64,000 nt of DNA from Diaporthe sp. PMI_573. Lineage: Eukaryota; Ascomycota; Sordariomycetes; Diaporthales; Diaporthaceae. The DNA lies in contig JAJTUP010000048.1 of assembly GCA_021399435.1 (NCBI GenBank), positions 186,001-250,000 of the forward strand, read 5' to 3'. Positions 8,860 to 64,000 of this stretch are shown here, piece after piece; the first letter of the stretch is position 1; each line of letters opens with the position of its first letter. The notes under the pieces were generated by a model. It was not told where the DNA came from. It was given only the letters and a program-made list of their open reading frames with translations, and searched no databases. Position numbers and translations under genes: made by a program.

Positions 8860-10789
8860 CTACCCCAAGCGCTGTCGGCTCAGTTCCATCGCGACGTCAG
8901 CAGTCGCGCCGTCAAAAAAATCGTTCATTACGACCACGAGGTCATTGTTCCCACAGGCGCGTAGCGCATTGTTCTTCACCCACGGGAGCGTCTTGCTATC
9001 ACAGATGGGCTTAGTAGCCAATAAGCAGCTTGTAGAGGCGCCTGCTTCGAGGACACTGTACACTACAGCCTTTGGTATATTCGAGGCGGTCGCCTGGCAT
9101 TGGACTAATGGTGACGTTAGTCCTGCTACGGATCCTAAAGTGTTGCATTCTAGAACATTCCAAAACATGAAAGTCGGGGATCCGTTGCAAGAGAAAAGTG
9201 ACACTGACTGTTGATGAAGCCACGTCCACCGCAGCACTCTGGATGGAGGGCGCCGAAGCCATCGACGATGCTATCACCGTTGAGGGTAGCGTTTCCCGCG
9301 TCCGTATAAGTCGACATGGAGTCAACGTCGCGGAGCATGATCAATCTGCGTCGGTCGCGACGCAAATCGCCGATTGTTCTGTTCCGAAGATCATCCAAGT
9401 TTCCGGGAATCACATGTTGTTGATGCCCCTCGAATGGGCGCAGGGCAGCCTGAAGGTGTTCGTTCTGCTGCTCATCATTCGGCCGTTCACAGTCCCCGGG
9501 GACGCCATCCCATCGAAGCTAGTTTACGTTGGGAAGTCAACATTGCGTTTCGTTGATCGTGCATGAAGCAAGTTACCACCGGAGCATCTGACAAATACGG
9601 TCGCCGACATTGGGATGATCAAACCATTTGAGTGGCTTACCTGAACAACGATTATCTCAGTCGGATGTTCGACCAGGAACCGGACAACCTCATTCAAAAA
9701 CTCTTCGTAGGCCATCCCGGGTATAGCGCTATGTTGAAAATAAGGTCTGTCAGCCAGATGTTGCCTGACCTGGTGATGACAGTAAGCAGGCCGGAACTCA
9801 AAGTATCTAGCGCCCAACGCAAGTATGGTGGGTAGAGGGTCTTTCTGGGTGATCGCAAGGCTCGAAACAATGTTTGGCGCTATGAGAGACTGCAGCATTT
9901 AGAGTCAGCTTAAAGAACCAAGGGAGTAGTTTTATGTAAATTGGGGGAGGGGGGGAGGGGGGAAGGGTCACAGTTTGGCCATAAAGCCTATCTCAAAGCT
10001 AGCAGCGTGACAAGTTCTTTGAGGTACGGGCCACAAATGGGAGAGGCATTATCTTGAAGGAGGATTATATCCAAAAGCTGCTTACCACAGCTGGCCCTGA
10101 GAGCTTGTCGGCAAGATCTGCCAGGACTTGTGTATATTTCTCCTCATTGGCGATGAGCGTTCGTACCACTGCGCCTCCGGCATGCTTTAGGATCGTAGCA
10201 CAATTTTGCATGCTGTTCATTCCTACGTCGTGGGCCGCAGGGAGGACCAGCCGCCGAAACGGCTGGTCTCGCTGGGGAGACCCGATTGGAGCCACCTGAC
10301 CTAGCCAGTCTGAATAATTAGGCGTGACCGTAATATAACACTGGTGGCGGTCAGGCAGGATATCGTGTCCGGTACCGGACTCGTAGAAGCCGTAAGATAC
10401 TATGATCCGCGGGTCTGGATGGACGACTGAATGCGTATTTGCGATGGTCGTCATTGTCCCGTCGCCCTGATACGTGTTAATCATGACGGACGTGGGCCGT
10501 AAAAGGAGAAGAGTGGTCTGTCTGTCTACGTTGCACTTACAACACTGCCCGTGAGAGCGTTCACCTCGACCCATTGCGCCGTGATAAGCCTACCCTCATA
10601 CAGGACCTTAAAGACGAAGCGACCAGTCTTGTCGAAGAAGCTGTCAATCTTGCTGGACTCGACCTCGAGGTCACCGTTCCAGAACTGGTGCAGCTCGTCC
10701 TTGACGACAGTCTGACCCGGGACTGACAGCTCGATGGAGCAGCCCGGCGCCGAAATATAGGTGTATGCCTGGACGCCTTTGCTCGGCAT
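8860..10789 (-). CDS. PLC-like phosphodiesterase
   Basis: Five-exon gene encoding 477 residues: 10541-10789, 10086-10466, 9641-9889, 9209-9518 and 8860-9104. The catalytic part resembles the phosphatidylinositol-specific phospholipase C X domain: LVLPAAHDVGMNSM carries the candidate catalytic histidine, followed by GARYFEFRP and HPTEIIVVQLRWDG, the usual strands of this TIM barrel. The first 83 residues form a separate N-terminal part of unknown fold. No signal peptide is evident, so it is probably intracellular. Substrate could be a phosphoinositide or another phosphodiester. Three of its four introns are introner-like: intron 1 is an internally deleted family A copy, intron 2 a family B copy and intron 4 a full family A copy; intron 3 (9519-9640) is ordinary. 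Confidence 0.82.
9105..9208 (-). mobile_element. Introner-like intron, family A (PLC-like gene, intron 4)
   Basis: 104 nt, phase 1, donor GTCAGT, branch GGACTAACG, acceptor ATTAG. Arms ACGGATCC and GGATCCGT are perfectly complementary. Contains GGAATGTTCTAGAATG, a three-unit HSE match. Nearly identical to the copy at 37349-37452. Confidence 0.9.
9890..10085 (-). mobile_element. Introner-like intron, family B (PLC-like gene, intron 2)
   Basis: 196 nt, phase 0. Begins GTAAGCAGCTTTTGGATA and ends TCTAAATGCTGCAG. Belongs to the B subfamily shared with the CSC1, MCT and PRISE genes. Holds a G-poor CCCCCCTCCCCC-type insertion near its middle. Confidence 0.88.
10467..10540 (-). mobile_element. Internally deleted family A intron (PLC-like gene, intron 1)
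   Basis: 74 nt, phase 0. The donor half keeps CTTCTCCTTTTACGG and the branch half keeps ATGATTAACACGTATCAG, but the middle, including the HSE-like core, is missing. It still makes a consistent splice, so it appears to be a shortened functional copy. Confidence 0.7.
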
Positions 10790-11370
10790 TTTGATTCCCT
10801 TCTGCTTCTAGCGCGTTGTGTGCGAGTGTGAGTTGTCGTGAGCAGTATTCGCTGGAAGTTTTGATGATGGAGGGGAAGTTTGCTTAGGTCTCAGCCGGTC
10901 AGCCACAAAAAATCAAACGGTCAAGAGACGGGACGGGATGGATTTGTCTTGGCTGCTGCTGAGGGGGCGAAGTCGTCTTCGGCCAAGGCCATCCTTGTGA
11001 AAGGGTTCGGGTTGTAGATTTCACTCCACGAGAGCACGAGAGCACTTAATTGACCAGGCTTCTTGTACGGATGACGGCAGAGGACAGCTGGGAAGAGATA
11101 AGAGATCAATATGAATCTAAGTCTTCATCACGTTGGTTAGTTAGTTCAAGGTGCAATGTGGTCCTGTTCGAGACTCTGGCACGTTCAAGGCAGCGGCAGC
11201 GGCAGCTCGTGTTTGCGGACCCATCACACAAGGCGCATGGGGACGGCTTAGGCACCGTAGGACAACAGACATGGAAAGCAAAAAAAAAAAGAAACTATAG
11301 AGAAGAGCTCAAGGATACATGTTGTTCCATTGAGGAGTCCTCGCGCCTCCTGATTCTCATGAGATTCGCC
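10790..11370. other. Intergenic between two minus-strand genes
   Basis: Promoter side of the PLC-like gene and 3' side of the GH5 gene. An A-rich run lies at 11280-11291. No gene seen. Confidence 0.5.
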
Positions 11371-16620: not shown

Positions 16621-16907
16621 GGGGCTTATGAATACTCCAACACATATGTGGCTATGGTCAATGGCATGCTGAGTATTCATTGCATATGAATGCATCTCTT
16701 ATGCGGATCCTTCACTTGACAGGATTGCCAGGTCCGATTGGGAAGTAATCTTTGTGTAGCCTGAGATTGCGGGTAAACAAGTTGGATGGGCAAAGACTGT
16801 TATGGTTCATATTTTGTTTGGCTGAAGAGCGGACAAGCGACATCGTATTGCGAAGATAGAACAGTCGTTACTATGAGTGAGTAGTTGGGAATGACAGAAT
16901 CTCTTAA

Positions 16908-19310
16908 CTATTTACTGACAGCGCACTCTGCCGAGCTTGACACACTTCTATCAGACTCGGAAGTGGCCGTCAATTTTATGAGTGCGGCCGCATCTGCGCT
17001 CTCGGCGGCAGCGACAGCAACGACAATCTGTGTCTTCACCCCGAACTCTGCTACAGCAAGCTCATTTGGCAACTCTACCCTCCACCCGCTGGCATCTACG
17101 GCTGCCTCGAGTCGGAAGACGTCGCTTTTAGTATACCGCCCTAGTGTCGCGTTCCCCCCGGCGGTCTGCTTGCCGGTATTGGTCAGGTCGAATACACACG
17201 CGGCCCCCTGAGCAGTAGAGGGGCTGCCAGGCCCGACAACGACACCAGGGCTGAGCTCGACGCCGCTCACACCTGCATTGCTCCTCGCCAGGGCGCGGGC
17301 TCCGACCGTGTAATGCAAAACGCCCAGGTCATCCCGGCGGCGGTTGAGGACGTACAAGTGCACGCCGTTAGCCTCGTCTGTGTGCTCGTACTGACTGCCC
17401 GACCTCGTGCCGGCGTGGAACAAGGCATCAGCCAGCTGTCGGTAATCGCCGATTGTCACCTTCTCCTCCTTGCCGTCGGGGCGGATATAGTCCACAACGT
17501 CAATGTCTTGTGGGTTCGCGTCAATGGTCCATTGGAATGGCTACATGTTACGTTAGTCCTGCTACGGGTCCTGAAGTGATGCGTTCTGGAATATTCCAAA
17601 ACATAAAAGACGGGGGTCCGTAGAAGGAGAAGAATGACACTGACCTGGGACCTGTCTGAGTTCTTGCTCTTGCTGATCATAACTCCACTGTCTGGCGTGA
17701 AGCTGTCAGCACCCATGCGGTCAATAACCTCAAGGTCGTAATTATTAAAGCCTCCGCCGTCGCATAGAGGCGCCGTGGAGACGTTGCAGTAGGGCCACAA
17801 ATCGGTGCCGAACACGATGCGTAGGCCAATCAGACCATCAGGGTTGTCCACTGAGCGAGCAGTCACCTCGGCAGTAACAATCCCGGACGATTCCAGGTCG
17901 GATTTTTGAACGATCAGCACATTAGAGACGTCTGTCAGGCCGAGCTGAAGCTTATCCCGGACAGTGTGAAGGGAGCCCATCGTCGCGCCTTGGAGTGAGG
18001 GGATCTTCCAACGGGTGTGGGGGCCCCCGGGTCCGTTAAAGCTGCCCCGAGACATCATAGACCAGGGACCCGTGTAGGCTCTTCTGGGTGGAACCCCATA
18101 AGGATTGTTGTAATTGTCGCCAATGCCGAGAAGGTGAGAGAGCTCATGAGCATACGTCGCGGCCCCGGAGCTCTCCGCCTGTGTTGAAGATCCCCCGCCT
18201 GCATTGGGCCAGATCGTTGATGCTGATGCCCAGGAAGTCCACTCAACGTATCGGGTTTTTGCGTAGTTTGGCAGTGAACTGTTTCCAGGCGGGCCAAATT
18301 CATCCGTCACGTCTTCATTGCTTATAAACCTCATGACCCCAAATTCCTGCCAAGATCCAGACTCGTCCTGGCCAGCACTGAGGATAAAGACGAGCTCATA
18401 ACTGTCAGCAGTGGCATTGCCGACATCTGCGCGCCATGCCCCTAGAGCATCTGTACGAAGGTCCGCAGTGCACGGCTCCTCTGGACAGGCTCCTGGGTTG
18501 AAACCTTCCTCGTCGACACCGTACTGGAACGACTTGGAAGGGAGTCTGTAGGCACCGAAAGCAGTCAAGTCGACGCCATATCGGCCTGCAGAATCCTCCC
18601 TAAGTATGGCGTTAGTCCTGCGACGGATCCCAAGGTGTTGCATTCTAGAACATTCCAGAACATGAAAGACAAGGATCCGTGACAAGAGAAGAGTGATGCT
18701 TACATCCAGTATTCGTGCAAGGTGTGGTTGCGATTGAGGTCCTGCGGTTTGTTGAGAAGATCCCTGTAGAAGGCGGGGACGCCCTCACGCTCTAGTTCCG
18801 AGGCATCTGGCTGGGGGTTGTTGAAAGGTGTTGACCCAACAGGCTTTGTAATGGTGAAGTTCTCGTCTGGATAATCCACCGCAACAAGCGCAATTCTGAA
18901 GTTCCTGATGGATCCAGTGTTGGCCGGGTTCACCCAGTCAGTGCCAGGGGGAGACACAAAATCATCCCATGTCATCTACGGCATTCAGAGTCAGTTGTCA
19001 AAGAGCCAGAACGGAAGCTTCATGCCAATACGGTGAGAGGGAGCTGCAGGGTGGTCAAAGCCTGTCTCAAAAACCTGCAGCCCGAAAAGTCCTTGTCGTA
19101 CAGGCTAAAGATGGAGTATGTTTGTTCTTGGAGAGGCAAAGATCGTATCCAAAAGCTGCTTACATTATCTGGGTTTACCCAGTTTTGAGGGTCCAGCACC
19201 GCAAATGGCTTGTCGATGGCCCTGCGGCCAAACGAGAGCGGCGCTGGTGCGCCGCGGGCAACATTGGCCAGCACGGCCGCTGCGAGGTAGTTGCCGCCCT
19301 TGTACAGCAT
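16908..19310 (-). CDS. Secreted M6-like metalloprotease
   Basis: Four exons (19164-19310, 18704-18975, 17645-18599, 16908-17540) encode 668 residues. An N-terminal signal peptide (MLYKGGNYLAAAVLANVARG) is followed by a pro-like segment. The zinc motif HELSHLLGIGDNYNNPYG fits HExxHxxGxxD, with the downstream turn GPWSMMSRGSFNGPGGP characteristic of M6 (immune inhibitor A-like) and related zinc proteases. The C-terminal 200 residues look like beta-rich domains. It is predicted to be secreted and to degrade extracellular protein. All three introns are introner-like: one family B and two family A copies, both exactly 104 nt. A second in-frame methionine lies 11 codons upstream at 19343; 19310 gives the better signal peptide. 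Confidence 0.83.
17541..17644 (-). mobile_element. Introner-like intron, family A (M6 protease, intron 3)
   Basis: 104 nt, phase 0, donor GTCAGT, branch GGACTAACG, acceptor TGTAG. HSE-like core GGAATATTCCAGAACG. Both inverted-repeat arms read GGACCC, so the centre of the stem is mismatched. Confidence 0.9.
18600..18703 (-). mobile_element. Introner-like intron, family A (M6 protease, intron 2)
   Basis: 104 nt, phase 2, donor GTAAGC, branch GGACTAACG, acceptor CTTAG. Arms ACGGATCC and GGATCCGT intact. HSE-like core GGAATGTTCTAGAATG intact. Confidence 0.9.
18976..19163 (-). mobile_element. Introner-like intron, family B (M6 protease, intron 1)
   Basis: 188 nt, phase 0. Starts GTAAGCAGCTTTTGGATA, ends CTGACTCTGAATGCCGTAG. 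Its middle (GGGCTGCAGGTTTTTGAGAC, TTGGCATGAAGCT) is shared with 26117-26310, marking a second B subfamily. Confidence 0.88.
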
Positions 19311-20137: not shown

Positions 20138-23076
20138 TCATGGAGACGACCCATCAAAAGACACTCTCCGACTGACCACACGACTCCTGACGCTTGTGTC
20201 TCGACTGATAGCCCTTCTAATCTCGGCATCCTCTTCTTCCTCGTCATCTAGCTGCTCTTTAGGCAGCCTGACAGCACGATCCAGAGCCACAGGCAAGCCG
20301 CGGTGTCTCCCTCGTACCATAACCAGCACCATGACGACCTTGCTGCCCGTGTATAAGCCCCCACTAAAACTATACGCCTGATTTGGCAGTCCGAGCGACA
20401 GGCCTATGTTCGTGTAGCCACTAACAACCTCAAACATGATGTTGAACACACTGTAGGTCTCTGGGTCGAGGAGGCTGTGTTTTGTCTCAATAACTGCAAT
20501 GAGGAACATGGCTAGTGCCATCCACCATATATCATGGGAGAGTTGGCTTCGTACGTGTTGCGAGACGAGGTCGACTTCTCCTTCGTTCGTAGTCGATACG
20601 GAGGTGATTGTTGCCGAAGACGCACTTGAACTTGATGGCGAGGAACCTGGGTTCGGTGTGACGTGGAAGAAGGTGCTTTTTGATGCACCACCGTTGACGC
20701 GGCCAGGCCGCCGCGGTGCGCTGACGCCGACACCTTGGAAGCCTGTCATGCGCCGCTGGATCTGGCGCCCAACAAAGGCTGTACCACGCCGGCCAACTTG
20801 AGCGAGCTTCTTGATGGAACGCGTCGACATGTTCGAGGTCTGCGAAAAAGCCGAAGTCGGGGAGAATGGCCCATTGTTCCCTTGTTGTGGCACGGCCAGC
20901 AGTGACTGAGCAGCAAACTGGGCACTCTCTCCTGTTCCAGGGTCCGTCTTCTTGTCGCTGGTAGGCTCATCATCTCCTGCATAAATACCGAGTGACCGCT
21001 CCTCATACACGTTCGAGTTTCGCATTGTGATTGTTCCTGGATAAGTCTCGAGGTACATAATGACCAACCAGAGCACCTGGATATCAAAGTAGACAGCAGA
21101 CGGGCTGATGATAGCGAAGCCCCCGGACCAGATTGCTTTCGGAATGGTGAGCGAGTGCGTAAACAAACGCGGATTCAAGGACGAGACTTACATATTGACT
21201 GGAAAAGCATGTTGAATACCCGTTCGCCAGAAGGATCTGTGTCGAGGGCCGAATTTCCGATGCTCAGGACCAATAATGCAACCCAGTCCGCCGCCACTAG
21301 AACAACAAGCATTGCCACAAGTAGCCAGGTAGGCTTAGATGGAAAGAGCATGGTGTATACTCGGCGTGGGTACTTGAGCGTGAAATCGAGAGTCTCCTTG
21401 GTGATGGCATAGTCTCCCTCAGGGGTACCATATTTGAGAATCTGGGACAAAATCCAGAGTATCAGCCTCAGGACTGATACGTGTTAGCGACCTGCTACGG
21501 AGCATAAGGTTTTGCATTCTGGAACGTTCAAACCATGACAGACGGGGGACCGTAAAAGGAGATGGCGCTTACATGCTGGGAATGCTGCACTGCCCGCGAG
21601 CATGAGGAAAACCGTGACCACCAAGAGGAACCAGGCGTCCTCGAATGCCGCGATACCAGCATCCAAGAGCGTCAGACCACCGTTGTTGAACGCGGAGATT
21701 GCGATGAACGCACCTGTCCACCAGGGGTTCTGTGCATTCTCCCTAGCAGCTGAAGGGTTGTTGACTGCAATCCAGGCGCCGAGAGCGATGGCACCGAGGA
21801 GCTGCCAGAGGAAGAAGTACACCGTGACAGTGGCAATCAGGAGCTTGATGGCACGGTACTCGACACCGCCAAGGTATTCGCGTTCCCTTGCGGTTAGGTT
21901 GTGGAACTGCCCGTTCCTGCCGACATTGACCTTGTTCTGTTTCAGAAATGTGTCGATGCTGAAGGACTGCTCCTGGTTCGATCGAGCTGGACGCCCATTC
22001 CCGGTGTCTTGACTGACTGCGGATTTCTGCCTGGTCACTTGAGGACTCCCACGCTGGTACACACTCGAGACCCCGAGTCCCGTCGCGTGGCTAGGCTCGC
22101 CCTCAGTGATAGGATCCAGGAATTTGATGCTTCGCCCCCCGGGGCTCATAGGCGTTTCCGACGGGTTAGCCTTTGGTGGAGCCAGGAATGGACTCTTTGC
22201 GGCCTCCAGGTCAACCTGTGCCTTTTTCTCGGCCAGCCCACTTGGTGTTGGCGACTTTGACTTTGACGATTCGCTTGTCTCAGGGGATGCGGCAATCCTC
22301 GTGCCCATGCCTGTCAGACCAGCTTGGTCCCTATCGCGAGTGATTACACTCCGAAACCTCTGTGATTTGGATTCGGTCTTGTCCCGGGAGCGAAACGTAG
22401 ACATGACTGGCAGCCCAAACATAGCACCGGCCATTCCGACAACTGCCCCGGTCGCCTTCATCTTGCGCTCTCTTTCACTCTGCACGATATCCTTGAAGCG
22501 CCTCTCAAAGATGTACATCCCTGGCACGTGTTAGTCACCTGCTACAGATCCCAAAGTTATGCGTTCTGGAACATTCCGAAACACGAAAGACGGGATCCGT
22601 AAAAGGAAAAAAAGGATGGTACGGACTGAAGACAAGTGTGAAGATGGATATCATGATTGGATTCCCCAGCATGAGGAGGATTGCCAAGATAACCTGCTGG
22701 CCAGTGGACATTGCTACAGAATGTCAGCATTGAGTCCCGGATATCTCATCCAACTTGGTCCGTACTGACCACTAATGTTGACCGTGTTCAGACCGGCCGA
22801 TGTCAGCGCAGAAAAGGCCAGGAACATGCTGTCCCAGAAGCCGATGCTCAAGGCGGGATGTGAGGCGCCCCAGAAAATAAGGGTTGCCGCCAGTCCGACG
22901 ATGAGGAAATATGCATAGTGAATGGTGATGTAGTTCACCGGGGGCAGCCATGGTCGGATACTTGTGCCCAGGTCGGACAGGCCACTTCGAAGCCTCTCCC
23001 AGCGGTTTGAGTCGACGCGGATCTTGATATTGCCGCCATCGCCCTTGTTGGGCCGTATTTTATCGAGGAGCCCCAT
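20138..23076 (-). CDS. trk1: TRK-family high-affinity potassium transporter
   Basis: Plasma-membrane K+ transporter of the fungal TRK family. Exons 22770-23076, 22627-22713, 21573-22520, 21192-21473 and 20138-21135 give 873 residues, close to the usual fungal length. The first pore loop reads FSALTSAGLNTVN; others are SAFNNGGLTLLD, QSISIWSGGFAI and VSGYTNIGLSLG, so the four M1-P-M2 units are present with their glycines. A long hydrophilic loop (exon 3) lies between units 1 and 2, as in yeast Trk1, and a second one follows NVYEERSLG. The C-terminus has the family motif VRGRHRGLPVALDRAVRLP. Two of its four introns (22521-22626 and 21474-21572) are family A introner-like copies; the other two are ordinary 56-nt introns. 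Confidence 0.93.
21474..21572 (-). mobile_element. Introner-like intron, family A (TRK gene, intron 3)
   Basis: 99 nt, phase 1, donor GTAAGC, acceptor TATCAG. HSE-like core TGAACGTTCCAGAATG. The branch region reads AGGTCGCTAACACG. Confidence 0.88.
22521..22626 (-). mobile_element. Introner-like intron, family A (TRK gene, intron 2)
   Basis: 106 nt, phase 1, unusual donor GTCCGT, branch GTGACTAACACG, acceptor GCCAG. HSE-like core GGAATGTTCCAGAACG. Arms ACGGATCC and GGATCTGT. Confidence 0.88.
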
Positions 23077-24432: not shown

Positions 24433-26690
24433 ATGTGGAATCCGTCCAAGTCAACACTCTGGCCTTCTCTGCTGGGCTTGCTCCTGTATCGAGCCGCCGC
24501 CCAGTTCAACAACCCTGCTGGAGTTGACATTTGGTGTGGGAAGGCATATCGACCGGCGTAAGTATCGCTGCAGTGCTATTACCGGCCAATGGCCAGTACC
24601 TACTAGTAAAGGCTCACAGCAAGACAGTAATTCCTCCTTCAACCCAGGTGGATGGTTTAAAGAGCCTTCGACATCAGACCACCCACTGCTTAGACTCACC
24701 GCGAAACCGCGCATGACCATATATCTCGACACAGACGAGACCGCTGCTCTGCTGATAGATGCCGAGGTGTCATATCAGCTTGGCCAAGCTATCAGCGAAT
24801 CTTCCATCACTACTCCGGCCCAAAAGCTTCAGGTTACTGTGCTCGCTGGAGATGCGACATTAGGCTCGGCTTCTTTAGATGTTGGGTCCATCGACAACGA
24901 AGTGCTTATCGCGCTGACTGCCCTCGTCCCCAGCCGAGACGCTTACAATTTGACGGTACATGCAGAATTAGCAAATTCGACTGTCTACTCTACAAGTACT
25001 AGCTTCGCCTATCTGCCATATCCTGAAGGCTACGGAAGTGTGGCCAGGCTGGATAATCTGTACGGGGGCACTCACGCTCAGAGAGGAAAGAATGGCTCCT
25101 GGGAGGTTATCTTCCCATACACTTACTATGCTCAATGGACCCTCTATTGGGATACTGACGTCTCTTCCCTTGATCAATTTGCCTCTTTTGGATTCAATCT
25201 GGTTCATATCGTCCCAACTGGGTCTCTTGGCGAGCAGCCGTTTCCTTGGGCCCAATTCCAGCCGTACCTTGACCGAGCTTCTGAACTGGGTATTTGGCTT
25301 CAATACGATGTCGTTTGGGAGCCCGAAAACTCGACCAACATGATCGAACAGATCACTGCCCTACGCACTCACCCCAGTATTTTAAGCTGGTACCAGAGCG
25401 ATGAACCGGACGGAAAGGGCAATCCCATAAACTCCACTGGCCTTGCCTACAAGACAATCAAGGAACTCGACCCCTACCACCCTATCAGCCTCGCCCTTAA
25501 CTGCGAAAACTTCTACTACAGTGAATACGCTGCTGGTGCTGATATTATTGTACCCGATGTGTACCCTATATCTGTCGATACCTCCTACTCGGTTGTCTAC
25601 AACACGTTCTGCAACCAGACTTATGGATGCTGTGGTTGCGATAACTGTGGAGTTGGCCCAACTGTCTTTAATGACATTCCACATCGGCTCGATGAGTTTA
25701 GACGCAGGGACGAGCTGATCGGTTGGGCAAAGACGCAGTGGTTCGCGCCCCAGGCCTTTGGGAACGAGACGTTTTGGACGAGATATCCCACCGCTCGCGA
25801 ACTTGACGTCGTAAGCACCTTTCTTCTCCTTTTATCGTTCCCCATCTGTCATATTTTAGTAGGGCCTATTGCAGGTTATTGATACATGGTTGCTAGATGT
25901 CGCTTCTTGCAGTGAACCACGGCGCCGTAAGTAGTTTTTGGATACTATCTTAGTCCCCTTTAGAAGAGTCTACTAGTATCTGCAGCCTACGCCTGAGAGC
26001 TTTCTTAGGCTGTACGTTTTAAGACAGGCTATGTCCACGCCTGCCCACATTTATATGGAACCTACTTGCTTTGTGCTTTGATAGCTGACTCTGAATGCTG
26101 CAGAAGGGCCTAACTAGTAAGCAGCTTTTGGATACAATCCTTACCCCGACAAAAGAAAAAGCATACCCCATCTTTATTTAGCCCATACGTCAAAGGCTTT
26201 ACGGGCTGCAGGTTTTGAAACAGGCTGTGGCCACCTTGTGGCTTACTCCTCACCGCATTGGCATGAAGCTAATTCTTTGGTTCTTTGATAACTGACCCTG
26301 AATGCTGTAGTGTGGAATTATCCTACGACCGCCGAGCTTTTCAACTTTACCAGAGATATGGCAGGTCTTTTCACGGGCACAACCGCAGCGCGGCTCTTTC
26401 TCGGCGCCCCGAGATACCAGGGCCTCACAGTCACAGGTTCTGACTATGTTGATGCTGCAGCATGGGTAGATAAGGCGAGTAGCCAGGCCATGATCAGCGT
26501 GGTGAGCCTAAGTTATGATGATATCTCTGTGCCCATCTCCATCGCCCTGCCGGATGGTTTTATTGGCTCGACGCTTGGAGCTAACCTTTGGGGCAATGGC
26601 GACTGGAAAGTTGGGCTCAACGGGACTCTGGTCTCTGGCGATGGCGTGGGAGGTCTAACAACAGCTGTTTTCCTGGTCAATATGACCTGA
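24433..26690 (+). CDS. Secreted TIM-barrel glycoside-hydrolase-like protein
   Basis: Five exons, 24433-24557, 24628-25810, 25897-25926 (30 nt), 26104-26116 (13 nt) and 26311-26690, encode 576 residues. A signal peptide (about residues 1-23, ending RAAAQ) precedes GVDIWCGKAYRPAN and a beta-rich N-terminal region. The central part reads as a TIM barrel: SFGFNLVHIVP, SELGIWLQYDVVWEPEN, the possible acid/base glutamate in SWYQSDEPDG, and after the small exons MSLLAVNHGAKGLTMWNYPTT. The last residues form a beta-type domain. It is likely an exported carbohydrate-active enzyme but no numbered family is claimed. Introns 2-4 are an eroded family A copy followed by two family B copies, so the joined frame depends on two very small exons; the frame and protein similarity across them are continuous. 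Confidence 0.8.
25811..25896 (+). mobile_element. Eroded introner-like intron, family A (GH-like gene, intron 2)
   Basis: 86 nt, phase 0. The first half (GTAAGCACCTTTCTTCTCC, TCCCCATCTGTCATATTTT) and the tail (TTGCAGGTTATTGATACATG) match family A; the middle with the HSE-like core is lost. Confidence 0.7.
25927..26103 (+). mobile_element. Introner-like intron, family B (GH-like gene, intron 3)
   Basis: 177 nt, phase 0. Begins GTAAGTAGTTTTTGGATAC and ends AGCTGACTCTGAATGCTGCAG. Only 30 nt of exon separate it from the A copy on its left and 13 nt from the next B copy. Confidence 0.85.
26117..26310 (+). mobile_element. Introner-like intron, family B (GH-like gene, intron 4)
   Basis: 194 nt, phase 1. 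Begins GTAAGCAGCTTTTGGATAC and ends AACTGACCCTGAATGCTGTAG. Middle part similar to the copy in the M6 protease gene (GGGCTGCAGGTTTTGAAAC, TTGGCATGAAGCT). Confidence 0.88.
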
Positions 26691-26868
26691 TATGGCGACT
26701 GGCACAAATCACGGTGGATTAATAAGATCAGACCCAAGCGTTATGTAAGGTGACTTAATGCATTGCATTCCTTCACCCATAAACAGGTCGTAAATGTGCA
26801 AGGCTGAGGGGTACATTCTAAATATACAAGATTTCGCGCTCGGTTTTCTGCAGCGAGACGTCCGTGGT

Positions 26869-38167: not shown

Positions 38168-38439
38168 ATCCAGGATGTCAAAAGAACCGGCCACAAATGC
38201 AGAAACGTCCCAATTTCAATAACACAAAGCACATGGCCTGACTGTTTGCTGCTGCGGCTGCAGATGTCCAATACCAACTTTATCCGCTGGAGAATGAAGA
38301 AGCCTTCCGCATGAGATCACTGTAGAGTAAATACTTAATAAGGAATACCGGTTTCCCCGAGTATACTGCCATATTCCTGTTTTCGCATTTTATCAATACC
38401 CCATTCCGTGCACTCTCGCCGTGCCTCTTCTCTCCGATT

Positions 38440-41400
38440 TCAATAAGCCTTTGGCTGCTTCCAGACCGGTAAACCTCTCAGGTTCCTCCTTTCAAAATCC
38501 ACTTTGCCCTTGCTGCTAACCCAGGCTCCCTCATCCGTAGCCTCCAGGTTGTCCGCTCTCAGGCTCTCGATCTCCTTCTTGCTTAAACCATAGCCATCTT
38601 CTGGCAGCCATATGAGAGGCGTTTTGCTGGAGAGGCTGGGGTTCTGGTAGGCTTTCCTGATATCCTCCTCACCGTACTCGGGGGTGGGCTCGGTCTCGGC
38701 TCCTGTGCGAGCGAGGAAAGCTCGCATGACTTGATGCGAAGCGTAGATGTGTGGTTCAAGGAACCGTGCGACTGGGGAGATGACCTTCTGTGGCAGATGC
38801 AGTTCTCTGCCGAGACGCTGCACGTGAGATCGCTCGTGCTCGTCTACTCGTGCATCTCCAGCAGCGACGGCCTGCCCTTCCTCTGCGGCAGAGATGAGAG
38901 GATCATGCTCCCCATTCTCAGCGTCAACCATGTCGTCAGGAAAATGGTCCTCCAGCGGGTTCAGATACCGATTTGTCAAGATGTTGTATACAATGGTTGC
39001 GAAGAATAAGATAGCAAGCATAATTGCAGGACCCTTGGCCTTCCGCAGGCCGAAAAGCCCAATCAAACACAACTCACCGATGTATATACCCGCCTACAGC
39101 ATTCAGAGTAAGCTACCAAATGACCATAGGAGTAGTTTCATACAAATTGGGGTAAAGGAGAGGGTTACAATGTGGCTGTAGCATGTTTCAAAGCCAGCAG
39201 CGCAACAAATTCTTTGAGGCACAAGACATAGGTGGGAGAAGTTTCTTCTTGGAAGGGTTAAGATTGTATCCAAAAGCTGCTTACCAGTATCTGCTGTAGT
39301 GCGCGTGTATAGCACTTCCCCTTAGTCTCGATTTTCGGCTGCACCATGAACAATAAAGTATACCGGTAGCTGAAATAGAAGAGGGAAAGTCCCACAGCTG
39401 CAAAGCCCAGAACAAGTGGTGATATGCAGCTGTAAGCCAGGGCGATGATTACAAAATTTGTAAACTTCGGGTAGACTTTACCCCATGCAATTCCTTTGAG
39501 ACCGGCATACTGGTTGTACTTATCCCGTGGTGTTTTGTAGATGAAGATTTCGAAGAAAAGGTACCGTAGGAGGTCCGACCAATTCATGATGTTCTTCACA
39601 GACGCTGTGGCTTCATCAGCATATATAACCCTGGAAATCGAACAGGCCTGGACCGGCCAGAGGAGCACTGCAGGTTACTATGTCGGTCAATTCTATCTCA
39701 AAGACACGACCTCTAAGCAATACGCTCTACAGGAGGTCGATGTCTCTTGAGCACATGAACTGCCAAGGTAACTCAAAGTGCTCATCAACTGGGTCTTGGT
39801 TTCCTAAATCAGGTGAAACACAGGGGAATACGAACAGGCGAGGCCCTGGAGTATGAAATAAGTCAGGTAGAAGTTTGATGATTTCGGAAGATTGTCAGCG
39901 AGTAGCTGCGGAACATGGTGTGGGTTACTAATGACTGTCGGGATGAATGCGGTGGCCGATGAAGAGAGAGCGGTGACCAGGAACACCTGGATAATCTGGA
40001 ATGTATAGTACCAGGCCTGAACCTGTAGCTCGGCCGTGACTACGGTAGGTTGTCCCGAGGCTCTGGCAACATCTGGTTCAAGCGTGGCGTCAACGAAGCG
40101 CTCCAAACAATGTGGTTGCGAGCTAGTAGGAGGGGAAGAAGTCGTCCTGTGTTTTACTTACGTCGCATGAGGTTCGGCAAGTAAGACGCAAACTGGCTCG
40201 TGAGAAAAGGAGGCAGAAACCCTGTGAGAAGCCCCAGGAGAGAGTCTGGAAGGTTGTTGATCCACGAAAGCCATGAGACGTTGTCCGCGAGGTAATTCAC
40301 GTTTGATATCTGCAGCATTCAGAGTCAGCTATCAGAGCACCAAGGGAGTCGTTTCACACGACAAATAAGGGGAGTATGGGCCACAGTGTGGCCATAGCAT
40401 ATCTCAAACCGCCAGCGTAATAAGTCCTTTGAGACACAGGCCACAGATGGGAGAGATTTCTTCTTGAAGGAGCTAAGATTGTATCCAAAAGCTGCTTACG
40501 GTGCCAATGATGGCCGTTGGGATGGACCAGAAGACGATGAGAAGCGCTATCAGCAGGTTTGCCACGGACTTCTTGGACAGCCGTTCGGCCTGTGGCATCG
40601 CAAGATTGCGCCATATTATTTCGTTCGGAAGAACGCCAATGAGTCGCGACTGGATGGCAAGGCTGGGAGGCACAGGAAGGCGAGATTGGGATTCGCCCCG
40701 ATAAGCTCGTTGTGCGGCAGACTGGGTGGCGTATTCAACAAATATTGCACATCGATTGTGACTATTTGTGCTTTCAGCCGAGTAGGACTCCCGTTTCTCC
40801 GCGACTTTCTGCAATGCTTCTTTGACCTCATTGCGCAGGTGTTGGATAAGATCAGCTGCGTTGCCGGTGAGATAGTGCTGTCGCTCACGTGGGCGCGCAC
40901 TCTCGATTGCAGCATCATCTGAACTTCCTTCGGCATCTAAGCCCTCTCTTTGGCGAGTTTTGGCGATCTTTTTGCTGGCCTGTCTAAGGTACGCGACTTC
41001 AGCGAATTCTAGTCTCACCGTCTTGTCATCCCTCGACTCGACCTCGTCGTCAAGCGACTTGGTCTTTTTGACGATCCACTGATGTCTTGCCTCACTGCCA
41101 AAGTTCTGCTGTGGGCCAGAGGCCTCCCTGGGCGGGTCGAGATAAAGCACGGTCCGTGACGAGAGTCGGGACGCGTTCGCTCGAGCGAGATACTACTCCC
41201 GGTTAATCACCCGCTATGGAGTCTATAGTGATGCATTCTGGAACATTTCAAAACACGAAGGAAGGGGCACTGTACAGGGAGAAGAGCTGTGCTTACCCAG
41301 GCTTGGCGGAGCCCAACGAGCCAAATCCGCTCTCTAGCAATGACCAGCATGACAAACCCGAAGAAGACCCAAGCCACGACGGCATGAGCATAAAGTCTGT

Positions 41401-52106: not shown

Positions 52107-52249
52107 AGTGAGGCGGTAATATTCCTATTGAATGAAATTGTCTTCTTTTTGTTCTCTTTGAATGCGCCGTAACATTGACTGTGAAGGTTGCAACATATTA
52201 TCTACGGCGCTATTCTGGCTGAGATGGATAGCAGAGCATGAAACCACAA

Positions 52250-54080
52250 CTATACGCTTGATAGCAGTTCCCACCTGCTTACCATACACCTGCTGATAGC
52301 CATAAACAACGCACCCGACAATAGTGAGCCGCCACTCCAAGCCCAGGTGGCATGGAAACCAAATGTTCTCCACAATGCCCCTGCAGATGGTGCACCGAGC
52401 AAGAGCCCGATACTGCACACGGTCGACGCCATACCAGTCCTTGTGCCGATACGGCCAGGATCCTCTGTGAGTCGTGCAAAAATCGTCGGCTGCAGCGTAA
52501 AGAAGGCACCAGTGAAGAAACCGTACAGGATGATCAGGACCAAAAGACCTGCAAGATCCGGGCCGGCGTTGAAGGAGAGCACAACAATCGCCATTGAGGC
52601 AACCGATGTGACCATCATGTTCAATGGGCCTAGACGAAGCGTAAGGCAGGGTATGTTTGGAAGTATTCGACCAATGACTGAGGCCCCGTTGAGTATGGCT
52701 ACGAAGTACAATGCTGTGCTCTCCGTAGTGATTCCTTCTTGGACGGCGTAGCTAGCCAGGTAAAAGAAGGTTGTATATATGCCCAGGAATGAAAGCATGC
52801 AGCCAAGTACGAATAGAATATATGGCACGTCCTTGAGAGCAGACTGGTCAAAGAAAGCGCGTTTAGCTTGCGGCATCGTAGGCTGATGGAGTACAACATT
52901 CGATACGCCCAGAGTGACAAAGATGACTAGCGCCACGCTCAGACTGGTATATTTGAAGCCGATCATTGGTATGAGAGAGCGAATCATGATTGGATAGACG
53001 ACTCTGTGCAAGGCCACGATCATTAGCAACAATCACACATTTTGGCTGCTGTGACAGCCCCGCTGTTGCGAGTACTTGATTAACTCACCCTCCGAATCCA
53101 CTCGCACTGACCACGATGCCCGTCGCGAGAGGCTGTTTGCTGGTAAACCATGCTGATGGTACTGCAACGCTCGGGACGGCTAGGAGGCCCACTGCAGCAT
53201 TCAGAGTCAGTTATCAGAGCACCAAGGGAGTAGTTTTATACAAATAGGGGAAATAAAAGGCCACAGTGTGGCCATAGCCTATCTCAAACCACCAGCGTGA
53301 CGAGTTCTTTGAGGCTAGGCCACAGAGGGGAGATGTTTCTTCTGGAAGGGGTTAAGATTGTATCCAGAAGCTGCTTACTTCCAGTCCCCATGCAGATTCC
53401 TTGGGAGAGAAGCAAATGCCAGTACTCGAAGGAAAGCCCCTGCATACTAGTACGTGTTAATCACCTGCTACGGAGCCTGAATTGATGATTCTGTGTTGTT
53501 CCAAAATAGAACGGCCGGGGAACTAGAACAAGAGAAGACAACACTTACATTGTTCCAACAAAAATTACTACAGAGCCAGTCCTAAGTAGATGGCTAAAGT
53601 AGCCCTGATCAAACACAGGTCCAGCAATAAAACCGAGGAAGACCATCAAAAAACTTTGCACCGAACCAATGCTCGAGACCTGGAAAGAACTGGCCTCTGC
53701 CAAGATGGTCTCTTCATAGTAGCTCTGGTAGCTTCCAAAGCTGGAAACAATTCCTGCGTCAATCAGCATCCTAGGAACGAAAATTGATACTGTACGCCGT
53801 TGTGCAGGATCTGCTTACCCCCTACGTATTACGTTAGTCCTGCTACGGGTCCTGAAGTGATGCGTTCTGGAACATTCCAAAAACATTAAAGACGGGGATC
53901 TGTAGAAGGAGAAGAATGATACGAACAAGTATTAAAGTACAAAAAGAATGCGCCTAGTATTTGCAGCCACGCCTCCAAGCCTCCATTTGGGAGGCCTTTC
54001 CGCTCTAGCTCTATCGTCTCTGAGGAATCTGAAGAGAGAACCCCAGTTCCGCTCGAAGCAACAGCGTACCTTTTTTCCAT
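52250..54080 (-). CDS. Monocarboxylate-transporter-like MFS permease
   Basis: Fungal MCT-like (monocarboxylate porter family) membrane transporter of 428 residues. Exons: 53927-54080, 53819-53821 (3 nt), 53549-53753, 53379-53446, 53089-53191 and 52250-53003. Signature features: GLEAWLQILGAFFLYFNTWG, GIVSSFGSYQSYYEE, then SIGSVQSFLMVFLGFIAGPVFDQGYF, GLSFEYWHLLLSQGICMGTG, FTSKQPLATGIVVSASGFGG, FFYLASYAVQEGITTE, VIGRILPNIPC and GTRTGMASTVCSIGLLLGAP. Twelve hydrophobic segments follow the polar N-terminus. Three of five introns are introner-like (A, A, B). The first two introns are separated only by GGG, which completes TGG and begins GGA; without it the codon would be a stop. Substrate is probably a small organic acid or is undetermined. 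Confidence 0.85.
53192..53378 (-). mobile_element. Introner-like intron, family B (MCT-like gene, intron 4)
   Basis: 187 nt, phase 1. Begins GTAAGCAGCTTCTGGATAC, ends CTGACTCTGAATGCTGCAG. Palindrome GGCCACACTGTGGCC intact. Confidence 0.9.
53447..53548 (-). mobile_element. Introner-like intron, family A (MCT-like gene, intron 3)
   Basis: 102 nt, phase 2, donor GTAAGT, branch GTGATTAACACG, acceptor TACTAG. HSE-like core partly decayed (GGAACAACACAGAATC). Confidence 0.87.
53822..53926 (-). mobile_element. Introner-like intron, family A (MCT-like gene, intron 1)
   Basis: 105 nt, phase 1, donor GTTCGT, branch GGACTAACG, acceptor ACGTAG. HSE-like core GGAATGTTCCAGAACG. Followed by a 3-nt exon and then an ordinary 65-nt intron (53754-53818). 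Confidence 0.88.
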
Positions 54081-56756: not shown

Positions 56757-58160
56757 ATGAGGACTTCCACCTTATGTACCTTAGCTTTTGCGGTACTGTC
56801 TGCTGCTGTACCGGTATTTCCCAGGGTCGGACACCGGATTCTTCGGAGACAGGCCGATAGCAACCCTTTTGAGGGCAAGAAACTCTTTGTCAACCCGACC
56901 TATGCAGAGAAATTAGGGCAGACCGTCGAATCCTTCGAGGCAGCTGGCGACACTGCTAACGCGGAGAAAACCCGAGCTATCCAGGATATTGGCACCTTCG
57001 TCTGGATTTCCGATATCGCTAGTCTTTCTCATATCCACACTGCCATCGAGGATGCTCGCGCTGCTCAGGCTGAGACTGGAGAGACACAGATTGTTGGTCT
57101 TGTCCTTTACAACTTGCCTGATCGTGACTGCAGCGCAGGAGAGTAAGCACCATTCTTCTCCAGTTACGATTTCCCGTCCTTCATATTTTGGACTGTTTCA
57201 GAACGCACCACTTTGGGTTCCACACCGGGTAATTAACATGTACTAGGAGCGCTGGGGAGCTTGTCCTCTCCGAGGATGGCTTGAAACGTTACAAGACAGA
57301 ATATATCCAGCCATACGCCGAGAAAGTCTCGGCGGCAACAGATCTCACCTTTGCCATTGTTTTGGAACCAGACTCCCTAGGGAATCTCGTTACTAACATG
57401 AACATCGAGAAGTGCGCGAATGCAGCTGATGCCTATAAGGAGGGGGTCGCTTATGCGATCTCCAGCTTGCAGTTCGAAAACGTGCATCTCTACATCGATG
57501 CTGCCCACGGAGGATGGCTCGGTTGGGACGATAACCTACAGCCAAGTAAGTAATGGCGATAACTGCCCCCCCCCCAGAGCATTGATCGATATCCGTGCTG
57601 ATCAAATCCCACCACAGCCGCCGAGATCTTTGGCGAGGTCGTTCGCGCAGCTGGGAACAGCTCGCGCATTCGAGGCTACGCGACCAACGTCTCAAACTAC
57701 AACCCTTTCAAGGCTGAGATTCCAGAGCCTTACACCGAATACAGCAACTCTGCCGATGAGTCTAACTATACTACCTCACTATCCCCGTACCTCGAGGCCG
57801 AGGGCCTTCCAACTCGATTCATTATCGACCAGGGCCGTGTGGCCTTGCCAGGTGCGAGAGCTGAGTGGGTATGTGTCCCTATCTCCTGCTGCCTTGCACT
57901 GTCTTGCTCGTTGTTTCCTTAGCGGCTAAGATGCTTACTTTTTTAAGGGTGAATGGTGCAATGTAGCTCCTGCTGGGTTTGGTACAAAGCCCGGTACTGC
58001 TGTCGACAACCCTCTTATCGATAGTATTGTCTGGATTAAGCCTGGCGGTGAGAGTGACGGTCAGTGTGGAATGGAGGGGGCCCCGAGGGCTGGTCAGTGG
58101 TTTGGGGAATATACGAAGATGCTGGTAGAGAATGCCGATGCAAGCATTTCGCGATTTTAG
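56757..58160 (+). CDS. GH6 cellulase (cellobiohydrolase/endoglucanase) without binding module
   Basis: Secreted GH6 enzyme that cleaves cellulose beta-1,4 bonds with inversion. Exons 56757-57142, 57247-57545, 57618-57868 and 57948-58160 encode 382 residues. The signal peptide is MRTSTLCTLAFAVLSAAVP, then a short basic pro-segment ending RILRRQ and the mature start DSNPFEGKKLFVNP. The first family signature, with its catalytic aspartate, is YNLPDRDCSAGESAGE; the second is VLEPDSLGNLVTN. Further conserved pieces are LYIDAAHGGWLGWDDN, VSNYNPF, FIIDQGRVALPGARAEW, GEWCNVAPAGFGTKPG and WIKPGGESDGQC. No CBM1 is attached. Intron 1 is a 104-nt family A introner-like copy that splits the first signature between DRDCSAGE and SAGEL. 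A start 38 codons upstream is possible but would bury the signal peptide. Confidence 0.93.
57143..57246 (+). mobile_element. Introner-like intron, family A (GH6 gene, intron 1)
   Basis: 104 nt, phase 2, donor GTAAGC, branch GTAATTAACATG, acceptor TACTAG. HSE-like core partly decayed (GGACTGTTTCAGAACG). Confidence 0.88.
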
Positions 58161-59719: not shown

Positions 59720-61385
59720 ATGACCTCAACTCATTATCCCAGTAGCAAGGTCGCTTTTGTTACTGGCGCCAGTGGGATAACTGGAAACGCCATTATAGAG
59801 CACCTGATTCGTAAACCCGCGTCCGAATGGTAAGTCTTGGGGTTTCCACTAGTCTTAGAACAAGTGCTAAGAAATAGAAGGTCTAAGATTGTGATCACAA
59901 CAAGACGTGTTCCCAAATGGTCACTTTGGCAGGACCCTCGCATTAGGTTTATTGCTCTGGATTTCCTGAAACCTGCCGAGGAGCTCGTTGAGCAAATGAA
60001 GCTTCTGTGCTACGATGTGACACATGCTTTTTTTGCCTCCTATGTTCACGATACAGACTTTGCGAGACTGAAGGACTATAACGTGCCCTTGTTCCAAAAC
60101 TTCCTCATGGCTACCGACAAGTCTAGCAAGTCTTTGCAACGAGTTATCCTTCATACTGGTGGCAAGGTACGAGAGTGGCTTCACCCAATCTAGCCCCGCG
60201 AGGACGAGGACTGTTGAACTGACAGTATGGAACCAGAATTACGGCGTCCATCTTGGACCTGTAGAGGTTCCAGTACATGAGGGTATGGCTCGGTACGAAG
60301 ATTACGGAGAGAATTTCTACTATGCCCAAGAGGACTTCATGTTTGACTTGGCTGCCAAGCGTGGATGGCATTGGAATATCATCCGGCCCATGGGAATCAT
60401 CGGGTATACACCTGCAGGTATGTGGTGTGCGCTTTGGTCTTCCTTCAACGTTGCTTTAATCCGGTTGTCTATACCGTTTGATTACTCAGAAGAATCTGAC
60501 CTAATGGATCCAGGCAACGGAATGTCGATGTAAGCAGCCTTTAGATACACTCTTGACCCCTTTAAGAAAGCCATATGTGGCCTGGCCTCAAAGGACTTAT
60601 TACGCTGGTGGTTTGAGATAGGCCATGGCCAAACTTTGGCCCTTTATTTCCCCTATTTGTATGAAACTACTCCCTTGGTGCTCTGATAGCTGACTCTGAA
60701 TGTTGCAGTGCACTTACTGTAGCCATCTACTTCCTTACTTGTAGGGAACTTGGTGAAACGCCGATGTTCCCGGGCAACAAGTTTTTCTACAATGCCGTTG
60801 ATGATGCTTCCTATGCGCCAAGCATCGCAGATATGAGCGTGTGGGCTTCTACCCATGAGCACACCAAGAACGAAGCCTTTAATCATAACAATGGGGACTA
60901 TATCGTCTGGAAGTATTTCTGGGCGAGGCTCGGTGAGCACTTCGGGATGGAAGTCAGTTAACCGGGACAGATTTGTTGTGATAATGTGACAAAAGCTAAT
61001 TTTTGCACTCTCCCAGCTCCCGGAGGTTCCTGATTCAGCATGGATAGCAAATGGAGGAACTCAGGGATTGGAAAGTCAGATCAAGATGGTCGAATGGGCC
61101 AAAGACAAGAGACCAATCTGGGAACGAGTGGTCGCGAAGAATGGCGGTAATCCTGAGGCGTTCGACTGGGCAACATGGGATATTCTTGACTGGGGCTTAG
61201 GTGAAGGCTGGCTTGCCATAACTTCGGTCGCGAAAGCACGTAAGTTCGGATGGAAGAGATTCGATGACACGTATGATACTTGGATCGAAACTTTCCGTTC
61301 ATTCGAAAACTCCGGCGTCCTACCAATGGAAGCGCCAATCGAAAGGAAATCAACAGGCCTTCGTCCGCATCCTGGAGCACGCTAG
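59720..61385 (+). CDS. PRISE-like short-chain reductase
   Basis: NAD(P)H-dependent reductase of the PRISE type (progesterone 5-beta-reductase/iridoid synthase-like extended SDR). Exons 59720-59829, 59881-60166, 60237-60529, 60709-60952 and 61017-61385 encode 433 residues. The nucleotide-binding loop is VAFVTGASGITG. Then follow RFIALDF, THAFFASYVHDTDF, LHTGGKNYGVHLGPVEVP, the active-site type segment NFYYAQEDFMFDLAAKRGWH, WNIIRPMGIIGYTP, APSIADMSVWAS and EAFNHNNGDYIVWK. Such enzymes reduce enones or related carbonyl compounds, often in specialised metabolism. Intron 3 (60530-60708) is a family B introner-like copy; the others are ordinary (51-70 nt). It precedes the BVMO-type gene on the same strand, which may be functionally linked. 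Confidence 0.88.
60530..60708 (+). mobile_element. Introner-like intron, family B (PRISE-like gene, intron 3)
   Basis: 179 nt, phase 2. Begins GTAAGCAGCCTTTAGATAC, ends CTGACTCTGAATGTTGCAG. Retains CTCAAAGGACTTATTACGC and the following GGTTTGAGATAGGCCATGG. Confidence 0.9.
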
Positions 61386-62348: not shown

Positions 62349-64000
62349 ATGTCTCCCATTGCGACAGCGGACGGCACGCCGTCACAAAACACCGAGCCAT
62401 TGCTTGGGAACAGCGCTCACGAGGTGAATGTCGCACTGAAACTCGCCGCGACGGGGCCTGAATATGGCTCCAGCACAACCGCATCTCTGCTGGATGGAGA
62501 GACCAAGCATCTTCAATATCCCCAATCCAGAGTGAACCTAGTCGATCGCTTTGTGGATGAGCCCCGTAAGATAAAGGTGGTCATCATCGGAGGGGGGTTG
62601 GCCGGGATTCTGGGAGGGTGCTTGTTGCCGCAGAAGGTTCCTGGTGTTGAACTTGTCATTTACGAGAAAAACCCTAACTTTGTGAGTTCAACTGGAACTG
62701 CGATTCTCTTAGCTTCCGACACGCTTCTCCTTGGGGAGTTTTCTAACAGACTCAGGGGGGCACTTGGCTAGAGAATATATATCCGGGCGTTCGCTGCGAC
62801 ATTCCATCACACGTCTACCAGTCCACATTCAGTCCAAAGACTGACTGGTCTGACGAATTCGCCCCTGGCACAGAAATCAGAGATTACTGGCAATCTGTTG
62901 CTAAGAAGTACAATGTCTACCAATACGCCAGATTTCAACATCGAGTCGAAGACGCCAGTTGGGACGCGGACACCGGTTCATGGACGTTGAAAATAACAAA
63001 CCTTGCATCCGGTTCCGTCGTACAGGATAAGGCTGACTTCGTTCTGACTTGCATCGGTAGATTCAACGCGTGGGAACTTCCAAAATACCCTGGGTTGTCA
63101 GACTTCGCTGGTGTTCTGCGACACGCGTCTCATTGGGACCGTGATTTTGACCCAACAGGGAAGGCTGTTGCTGTCATTGGCAATGGTGCAAGTGGGTAAG
63201 CAACCACTCTTTCCCTTTGCAGTTCCTCCGTCTTTCATGTTTTGGATGTTTCATATCTTGTTACTTGAGACCCGCAGCAGGTGATTAACACGTGAAAAAG
63301 TATCCAGTTGGTTGCAAATCTTCAGCGCAAGGTCGCTAGACTGGATCACTACGCCAGAAGCAAGACCTGGATCGCCGCATCTTGGGCAGGCGATGAGCGA
63401 ACACTTGAGCCCCAGCCTATCCCAGACGAAAAGAAGAAGTATCTCAAGGATCCTGAAACGTATCTCGCATTTAGGAAGAAGCTGGAGGACAAGTACTGGA
63501 GGAAATACGAGACGTTTCTGAAGGGACCTGCCAATGACAACGTGCGCCAGTTTTTCACGGAAACCATGAAGGCCCGGCTTGCCAAGAAGCCAGAGCTATT
63601 GGAAGACCTCGTGCCTGACTTTGGTCCTAACTGCCGCCGCCTCACACCAGGCCCGGGGTATTTGGAAGCTCTCCAAGAGGCCAACGTCGATTTCATACGT
63701 CAACCTATCCAAAGGTTCACCAAGACGGGTATCGAGACTGCTGATGGAAAACAAAGGGATGTTGACGCAATCTTCTGTGCAACTGGAGCTAATGGAGATA
63801 TGGTCCCTCCGTTTTCCATCCGAGCTTCCGGCCGCGATCTTTCGGTAAGCAGCTTCTGGATACAATCTTAATCCCTTCCAGAAGAAACTTCTCCCCTCTG
63901 TGTTATATGCGTTAAAGAACTTATCATACCGCTGGCCCTAAAACAGGCTATAGCAGCATTTTAACCATGTTCTCATTGGTTCTTTGATAGCTGACTCCGA
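62349..64000 (+). CDS. Baeyer-Villiger-type flavin monooxygenase, 3' end outside window
   Basis: FAD- and NADPH-dependent monooxygenase whose 3' part lies past the window edge. Exons 62349-62681, 62756-63195 and 63301-63844 are in frame for 439 codons before the last visible intron. The FAD-binding motif is KVVIIGGGLAGILGG, followed by GGTWLENIYPGVRCDIPSHV, typical of class B enzymes. The BVMO fingerprint FxGxxxHxxxW appears as FAGVLRHASHW, and the NADPH motif is VAVIGNGASGIQ. The N-terminus is a polar extension of about 70 residues, so no signal peptide. The family inserts oxygen next to a ketone or oxidises N or S atoms; substrate unknown. Intron 2 is a family A copy and intron 3 a family B copy running into the window end. 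Confidence 0.88.
63196..63300 (+). mobile_element. Introner-like intron, family A (BVMO gene, intron 2)
   Basis: 105 nt, phase 2, donor GTAAGC, branch GTGATTAACACG, acceptor AAAAAG. HSE-like core decayed (GGATGTTTCATATC). Arms weakly paired. Confidence 0.85.
63845..64000 (+). mobile_element. Introner-like intron, family B, cut by window end (BVMO gene, intron 3)
   Basis: Begins GTAAGCAGCTTCTGGATAC and reaches ATAGCTGACTCCGA, where other copies continue ATGCTGCAG. The acceptor should therefore lie about 9 nt beyond the window. Confidence 0.88.

Follow-up and report, generated by a model that had tools for sequence, protein, structure and literature searches.

Introner-like introns in unrelated genes of Diaporthe sp. 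PMI_573

An earlier account of introner-like elements in the Dothideomycetes is reportedly that of van der Burgt in 2012. Here we describe a 64,000-nucleotide stretch of Diaporthe sp. PMI_573 (contig JAJTUP010000048.1, positions 186,001 to 250,000; hereafter the window), which carries repeated introns of about 104 nt, family A. Several described systems can be compared with it. According to PMC4457414, Dothideomycete elements are near-identical introns in unrelated genes, recently gained, with several families per genome, identity reaching 98-99% in some species and a predicted structure. Symmetrical introns of the Hypoxylaceae, in PMC12403724, are short and have a central palindrome; they are inserted seamlessly with no target-site duplication, and their symmetry fades with age. 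Finally, with introners of the DNA-transposon type, introns are gained as near-identical elements insert repeatedly (PMC9860276). Searches of the open-access literature gave no report of introners or stwintrons (twin introns) in Diaporthe or the Diaporthales. Family A shares with the Dothideomycete elements near-identical introns in unrelated genes and recent gain, and the features tested support placing it with the fungal introner-like elements. Very probably, judging from sequence, it consists of self-sufficient spliceosomal introns that would spread via excised intron RNA.

A search of the window with an iterated profile, built from the window copies and fetched loci, found 11 copies of family A at E 4e-9 or better (Table 1), all placed inside genes by reading frame. 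A twelfth copy, at about 25811-25897, has kept both ends and lost its middle (profile positions 1-52, E 2.6e-5), and a fragment at 10479-10517 matches the profile weakly (E 0.0016). A first-pass annotation of the same DNA had announced 13 near-copies; we count 12, 11 full and one internally deleted, and the fragment could be the thirteenth. Its six introns of exactly 104 nt are confirmed. Its length range of 99-106 nt for other copies also holds, with five found instead of four (99, 102, 105, 105 and 106 nt, boundaries fixed by reading frame). The core motif, with up to three mismatches, matches the window eight times, against 0.10 expected. Phases 0, 1 and 2 are all represented, as had been stated, and the copies display the two end types, GGACTAACG and GGTGAYTAACAC. 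The view that the host genes are unrelated is supported by Pfam for seven types (M6 peptidase, TrkH, S10 peptidase, CSC1/PHM7-like, GH6, FMO/BVMO-like and MFS); the gene labelled 'PLC-like' had no match in the Pfam search and its name is unverified. The Rfam search of the window gave no match.

The assembly containing the window comprises 83.7 Mb in 217 contigs, across which the core motif, at the same tolerance, has 350 matches, against 52 for the reversed motif. A 104-nt family A query gave 42 matches among the best 40 of 266 candidates scored. Among the matches listed, three loci on three contigs, the query's own included, are 100% identical, and seven loci are 99% identical over the full length. 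Two further family A queries gave 40 matches (best 40 of 156 candidates) and 28 matches (all 28 scored), and a query with a second family, family B, gave 40 (best 40 of 172). Pooling query matches and window copies yields at least 165 loci of family A and at least 78 of family B; 100 of the 350 core-motif matches fall within the pooled loci. The first-pass annotation had read the family as introner-like and had proposed a genome scan and a presence/absence comparison as checks; both support that reading, the first through the number and identity of the copies, the second through sites that are interrupted in some relatives and uninterrupted in others (see below). Among the matches listed, neighbouring pairs less than 1 kb apart are co-oriented in 32 of 32 cases, and those 1 to 3 kb apart in nine of ten. 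Four of the 30 youngest copies (L051 3132, L023, L037 and L038) begin GTTC, not GTCA, the remainder being nearly identical; variation of the 5′ end, or conversion, looks possible. Exact searches of prokaryote and viral collections with 19-20-letter pieces gave two matches, for which the profile supports a short stretch at most.

Insertion was analysed in 81 distinct family A copies with sequence, after removal of matches that the profile supported weakly or over a short length, of copies close to the end of a locus and of those with no donor or acceptor nearby. Of the 81, 54 measure exactly 104 nt. After splicing, the frame is open for at least 90 nt on both sides in 69 of the 81, against 40% of random positions. 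When the frame was called independently on each side by codon usage, 41 copies were confident on both sides, and exact excision preserves the frame in 34 of these (one third expected, p 9e-11). The coding score is higher on the sense than on the antisense strand in 70 of the 81. In the window, frames continue after removal of the family A introns at both M6-peptidase and both TRK sites and in the S10, CSC1-like, GH6, MFS, 'PLC-like' and FMO-like genes. At the first MFS copy, continuity requires that a second, neighbouring intron be removed too; this copy is the exception in a mechanical test over 60 nt on each side, where 10 of the 11 window copies are open. In the S10, GH6, FMO-like and OPT genes, Pfam matches cross the spliced junctions. 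For TRK, the second junction alone is covered, and the CSC1 matches flank the junction on either side. Unusual splice sites are demanded by the frame in two cases, a GTCCGT donor (22521-22626) and an AAG acceptor (63196-63300). Altogether, the reading frames indicate that family A copies would be removed as introns, with the frame restored.

The limits of the element coincide with those of the intron, and copies lie in coding sequence with seamless joins, mainly in sense orientation. At the junctions of the 81 copies, repeats equal the shuffled expectation and give no sign of target-site duplication. None of the 81 lies at an AG|G site, whereas a preference for AG/GY is given for the Dothideomycete elements (PMC8469720). 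The 30 youngest copies show weak base preferences only, the strongest being C at -2 (15 of 30). These data bear on the idea that family A is made of small non-autonomous DNA transposons, that is, introners resembling miniature inverted-repeat transposable elements, moved as DNA by a transposase. Such elements would account for the long internal inverted repeat of young copies, and according to PMC9860276 most introner families outside the ascomycetes show signs of DNA transposition. However, unlike introners of this type, family A has no target-site duplication above shuffled junctions and no inverted repeat at its very ends, the main stem beginning about 16 nt inside them, and it co-opts no splice site, both sites lying inside the element. 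The coding and sense bias of the copies and the common orientation of all the close pairs listed also speak against movement as DNA, which we regard as unlikely.

With the Hypoxylaceae introns, family A shares short, symmetrical introns with a central palindrome, seamless insertion, lack of target-site duplication and a symmetry that fades in older copies. The 8-letter core of the central palindrome, TTCTAGAA, occurs in 34 of the 81 copies; the full 10-nt form, WTTCTAGAAA in PMC12403724, by which type-2 cropped sister introns would be recognised, occurs in none. The NTIRE-10 element (GUAUAAAAAC and its partner), searched for in its published form only, has no exact match in the 81 copies, the best agreement of its 5′ and 3′ parts leaving four mismatches in ten; elements of this type vary in sequence between species. 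The sister stwintrons of the Hypoxylaceae and Xylariaceae are [D1,2] twins with a constant G before the internal donor, whereas families A and B are ordinary introns, each family A copy being one single intron of some 104 nt. In number also, the family A loci, at least 165, differ from the sister stwintrons: Hypoxylon CO27-5 has 23 of these in full form, besides 10 cropped introns, and one Xylaria has up to 61 (PMC12403724). Family A thus has the defining features of neither the Hypoxylaceae sister stwintrons nor the DNA-transposon introners. A hint towards the Hypoxylaceae in the first-pass annotation is not borne out by these absences, nor by the homologues, the nearest named relative of the TRK protein being from Diaporthe.

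To compare sites in relatives, 15 TRK and 12 S10 proteins were examined, of 120 homologues listed for each. Many database proteins were called directly on DNA, so that an uninterrupted protein suggests that no intron is present at the site, though annotated records (P0121, for example) could be spliced models. The S10 site, whose family A copy is 97% identical, is uninterrupted in 12 of 12 homologues, themselves 70-95% identical. Four TRK proteins of 15, P0124, P0130, P0132 and P0133 (86-99% identical), lose homology precisely at the second TRK site (21474-21572). P0124 reproduces the read-through peptide of the window with one change, and P0133 terminates in the SVAG- reading, as family A ends do; for P0130 its shortness, and for P0132 its divergence, prevents proof that the family is present. 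The other 11 (P0121-P0123, P0125-P0129, P0131, P0134 and P0135) are uninterrupted there. Scoring covered the second TRK site, several TRK proteins beginning at the first. On this comparison the S10 copy looks young and the TRK copy older. Among the homologues listed, the nearest named TRK protein is that of Diaporthe australafricana (87%), followed by Cytospora mali (46%) and Cryphonectria parasitica (44%). For S10, the best named are Acephala (57%) and Pleurostoma (56%), named Diaporthe proteins reaching only 48-49%, perhaps as paralogues. By TRK, a single gene, the host thus looks Diaporthe-like, an order of relatives that S10 does not reproduce.

The interrupted TRK sites mean that not every copy is specific to the species, and they would suit a model in which old shared introns were homogenised by gene conversion and no new insertion took place. 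Against this, the host genes are unrelated and the phases differ, the copies are spread over many contigs, the S10 site is uninterrupted in every homologue examined, and relatives as close as 86-88% include uninterrupted TRK sites. Homogenisation is therefore very improbable. Judged by protein continuity, recent gain with empty sites in relatives is indicated for family A.

When six window copies were folded, four gave z values of -3.0 to -4.3 and two diverged copies +0.2 and +0.3. A predicted hairpin with z below -2 is found in 25 of the 31 copies that match the youngest at 95% or more, against 15 of the 49 others. Folding improves with closeness to the youngest group (Spearman -0.57, 80 copies), with a p-value that is optimistic because the copies are related. 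In 55 copies, the hairpin is paired in 85.9% of cells, compared with 85.8% when partners are shuffled and 37-56% in slid registers. A stable secondary structure is therefore predicted for young copies, and the simplest reading is that structure would matter, if at all, for spread and would not be maintained afterwards.

Family B is a second introner-like family of about 188 nt, running from GTAAGCAGCTTTTGG to GAATGCTGTAG, with up to 97% identity between loci. Homology with family A was set aside, a comparison of the two families giving no significant match. Splicing would leave a frame open over 90 nt in 30 of 34 family B copies (antisense, 14 of 34), junction repeats are 0-2 nt only, and one copy folds at z -2.0. 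The base before its donor varies (A 17, T 7, G 7, C 3; 34 copies) and, not being constant, rules out a [D1,2] twin intron. Family B appears to multiply like family A.

The two families meet in nested introns. At C35:424123-424226, a 99% identical family A copy sits between donor positions 2 and 3 of a family B intron, and its removal restores the B donor GTAAGC, an unambiguous [D2,3] arrangement. A further case lies in an OPT transporter gene on contig C160 (L031 1501-1888), where a family A intron is followed by a 20-nt stretch and then by an A and a B copy that share a junction, readable as [D1,2] or, the next base being G, as [A2,3]. Removing both introns and the upstream A intron restores the OPT domain (E 2e-38). 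From such junctions it follows that the template, whether DNA or RNA, still had the other intron in place at the time of insertion. Genome-wide, a strict pattern with A directly before B had no match; a looser one, A closely before B, had three (C35, C160 and one pair 21 nt apart), against none in the control. The pattern is narrow and more nested cases may exist. Targeting of donor sites as a general rule was rejected: split-donor-like junctions (3 of 81, about 1.4 in shuffles) and donors within 6 nt downstream (3 of 81, about 1.7 expected) are near chance, and only cases with a recognisable B donor were therefore counted. Short stretches separate introns elsewhere, of 3 nt (next to window 53822-53926), 1 nt (L033 1395-1604) and 13 nt (window 26104-26116); these are possible micro-exons created by element insertion.

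Considering these properties, the following mechanism may be proposed. Each family A copy would come with a donor, a branch site and an acceptor of its own, and an insertion in sense orientation in a transcribed gene could therefore be spliced without harm. The excised intron RNA, foldable into a long hairpin in most of the youngest copies, would be the agent of spread. It would enter DNA, or an unspliced transcript, by reverse splicing or by RNA ligation, and would then be copied into DNA, after which the hairpin would tend to decay. Family B would work likewise. Stwintrons could also arise in this way, as an A copy can land in the donor of an intron already present. An RNA route is the best-supported mechanism, and spread through excised intron RNA is most likely; the route embraces reverse splicing and ligation during repair alike. 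The latter, in which excised intron RNA is ligated into double-strand breaks during repair and the spliceosome plays no part in insertion, was put forward by Fekete and colleagues (PMC12403724). Seamless insertion with no proto-splice bias, the insertion inside an existing intron donor and the hairpin of most young copies all agree with it. However, nothing in the evidence distinguishes it from reverse splicing, whether into DNA or into an unspliced transcript, and the sense bias fits both routes after selection; as the specific route, it is a tentative possibility.

Several observations weigh against the spread of family A as spliced, structured RNA. No spliced frame open over 90 nt is found for 12 of the 81 copies, and the antisense frame is open in 41. 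Among the 41 copies with confident frame calls, seven lose the frame on excision and nine fit retention. The antisense coding score is the higher one in 11 of the 81, and selection against antisense insertions can also produce a sense-only orientation. Once the nested pair of L054 is removed, the frame stays open for only about 20 codons downstream, to a stop possibly located in another intron. Of the six copies folded, the diverged one at 22521 gives the strongest fold (z -4.3), so that hairpin and youth are not strictly coupled. Finally, in 55 copies compensatory base changes are no more frequent than in shuffles and RNAalifold finds no common structure; these two tests do not support a conserved, compensated RNA structure.

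The elements are unevenly spread. Over 17 contigs, nine carry 14.8 listed elements per Mb and eight carry 2.0, the two groups having been chosen after the densities were seen; the set covers contigs of known length other than C161, which was searched more deeply through the window. Heterogeneity is marked (chi-square 211, 16 degrees of freedom), with a p-value that is too small because elements cluster locally. Contigs C35, C138, C160, C169 and C173 differ about sevenfold in listed density from C1, C112, C141 and C207, and the last 250 kb of C1 contains six of its 11 listed elements. A mixture of two genomes is disfavoured by three RPB2-type genes and a single-copy 849-aa open reading frame, and also by the proteasome genes (14 loci counted from 23 matches, one on an element-rich contig). 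A functional compartment is unsupported, cytochrome P450 matches (at least 102) roughly tracking contig size by eye. It may be imagined, as a doubtful extension, that families A and B are active RNA-borne introners acting on unspliced templates, favouring, or best tolerated at, existing 5′ splice sites. Introner insertion into introners would then be a continuing source of stwintrons, with C35:424123 caught early and C160 as a second case, and spread would be largely confined to some chromosomes or domains.

The features of the two families are collected in Table 1. Apart from them, the window contains an inverted repeat pair of 84 nt (173-256 and 6771-6854), whose differences are, by eye, mostly C/T and G/A. 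Repeat-induced point mutation would leave such differences.

Table 1. Copies of families A and B in the window, and the nested pair on contig C35
Feature	Position	Strand	Remarks
Family A intron	9105..9208	-	104 nt, youngest group; copies on C196 and C112 are identical
Family A intron	17541..17644	-	104 nt, M6-peptidase gene, phase 0
Family A intron	18600..18703	-	104 nt, same M6-peptidase gene as 17541 copy, phase 2
Family A intron	21474..21572	-	99 nt, TrkH gene; relatives have the site with or without interruption
Family A intron	22521..22626	-	106 nt, TrkH gene, donor GTCCGT
Family A intron	37349..37452	+	104 nt, S10 carboxypeptidase gene, phase 2; uninterrupted in 12 homologues
Family A intron	41193..41296	-	104 nt, CSC1/PHM7-like gene; predicted hairpin no better than shuffles
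Family A intron	53447..53548	-	102 nt, MFS transporter gene
Family A intron	53822..53926	-	105 nt, same MFS gene as 53447 copy; ends 3 nt upstream of donor-like GTAAGC
Family A intron	57143..57246	+	104 nt, GH6 gene, phase 2; end type 2; predicted hairpin no better than shuffles
Family A intron	63196..63300	+	105 nt, FMO/BVMO-like gene; reading frame demands acceptor AAG
Family A copy, internal deletion	25811..25897 (approximate)	+	upstream of two family B copies
[D2,3] stwintron, A within B	L054 3937-4226 = C35:423937-424226		A copy 99% identical
Family B intron, reference copy	18976..19163	-	188 nt
Family B copy	26117..26310	+	
Family B copy	25927..26103	+	13 nt upstream of 26117 copy
Family B copy	39094..39284	-	CSC1/PHM7-like gene region
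Family B copy	40310..40499	-	CSC1/PHM7-like gene region
Family B copy	53192..53378	-	MFS gene region; identity to other loci reaches 97%
Family B copy	60530..60708	+	
Family B copy, diverged	9890..10085	-	
Family B copy	63845..64000	+	cut off by window end

Intron gain is a long-standing question, for which recently copied introns are the best material. The nested case offers a concrete twin intron that introner insertion appears to have produced, a route already suggested for stwintrons (PMC12403724). With letter-identical unlinked copies, two families and apparently empty sites, insertion could be measured directly in this fungus. Family A appears to be a fungal introner-like element family, whose identical copies would mark recent insertion and be useful for studying the birth of introns.

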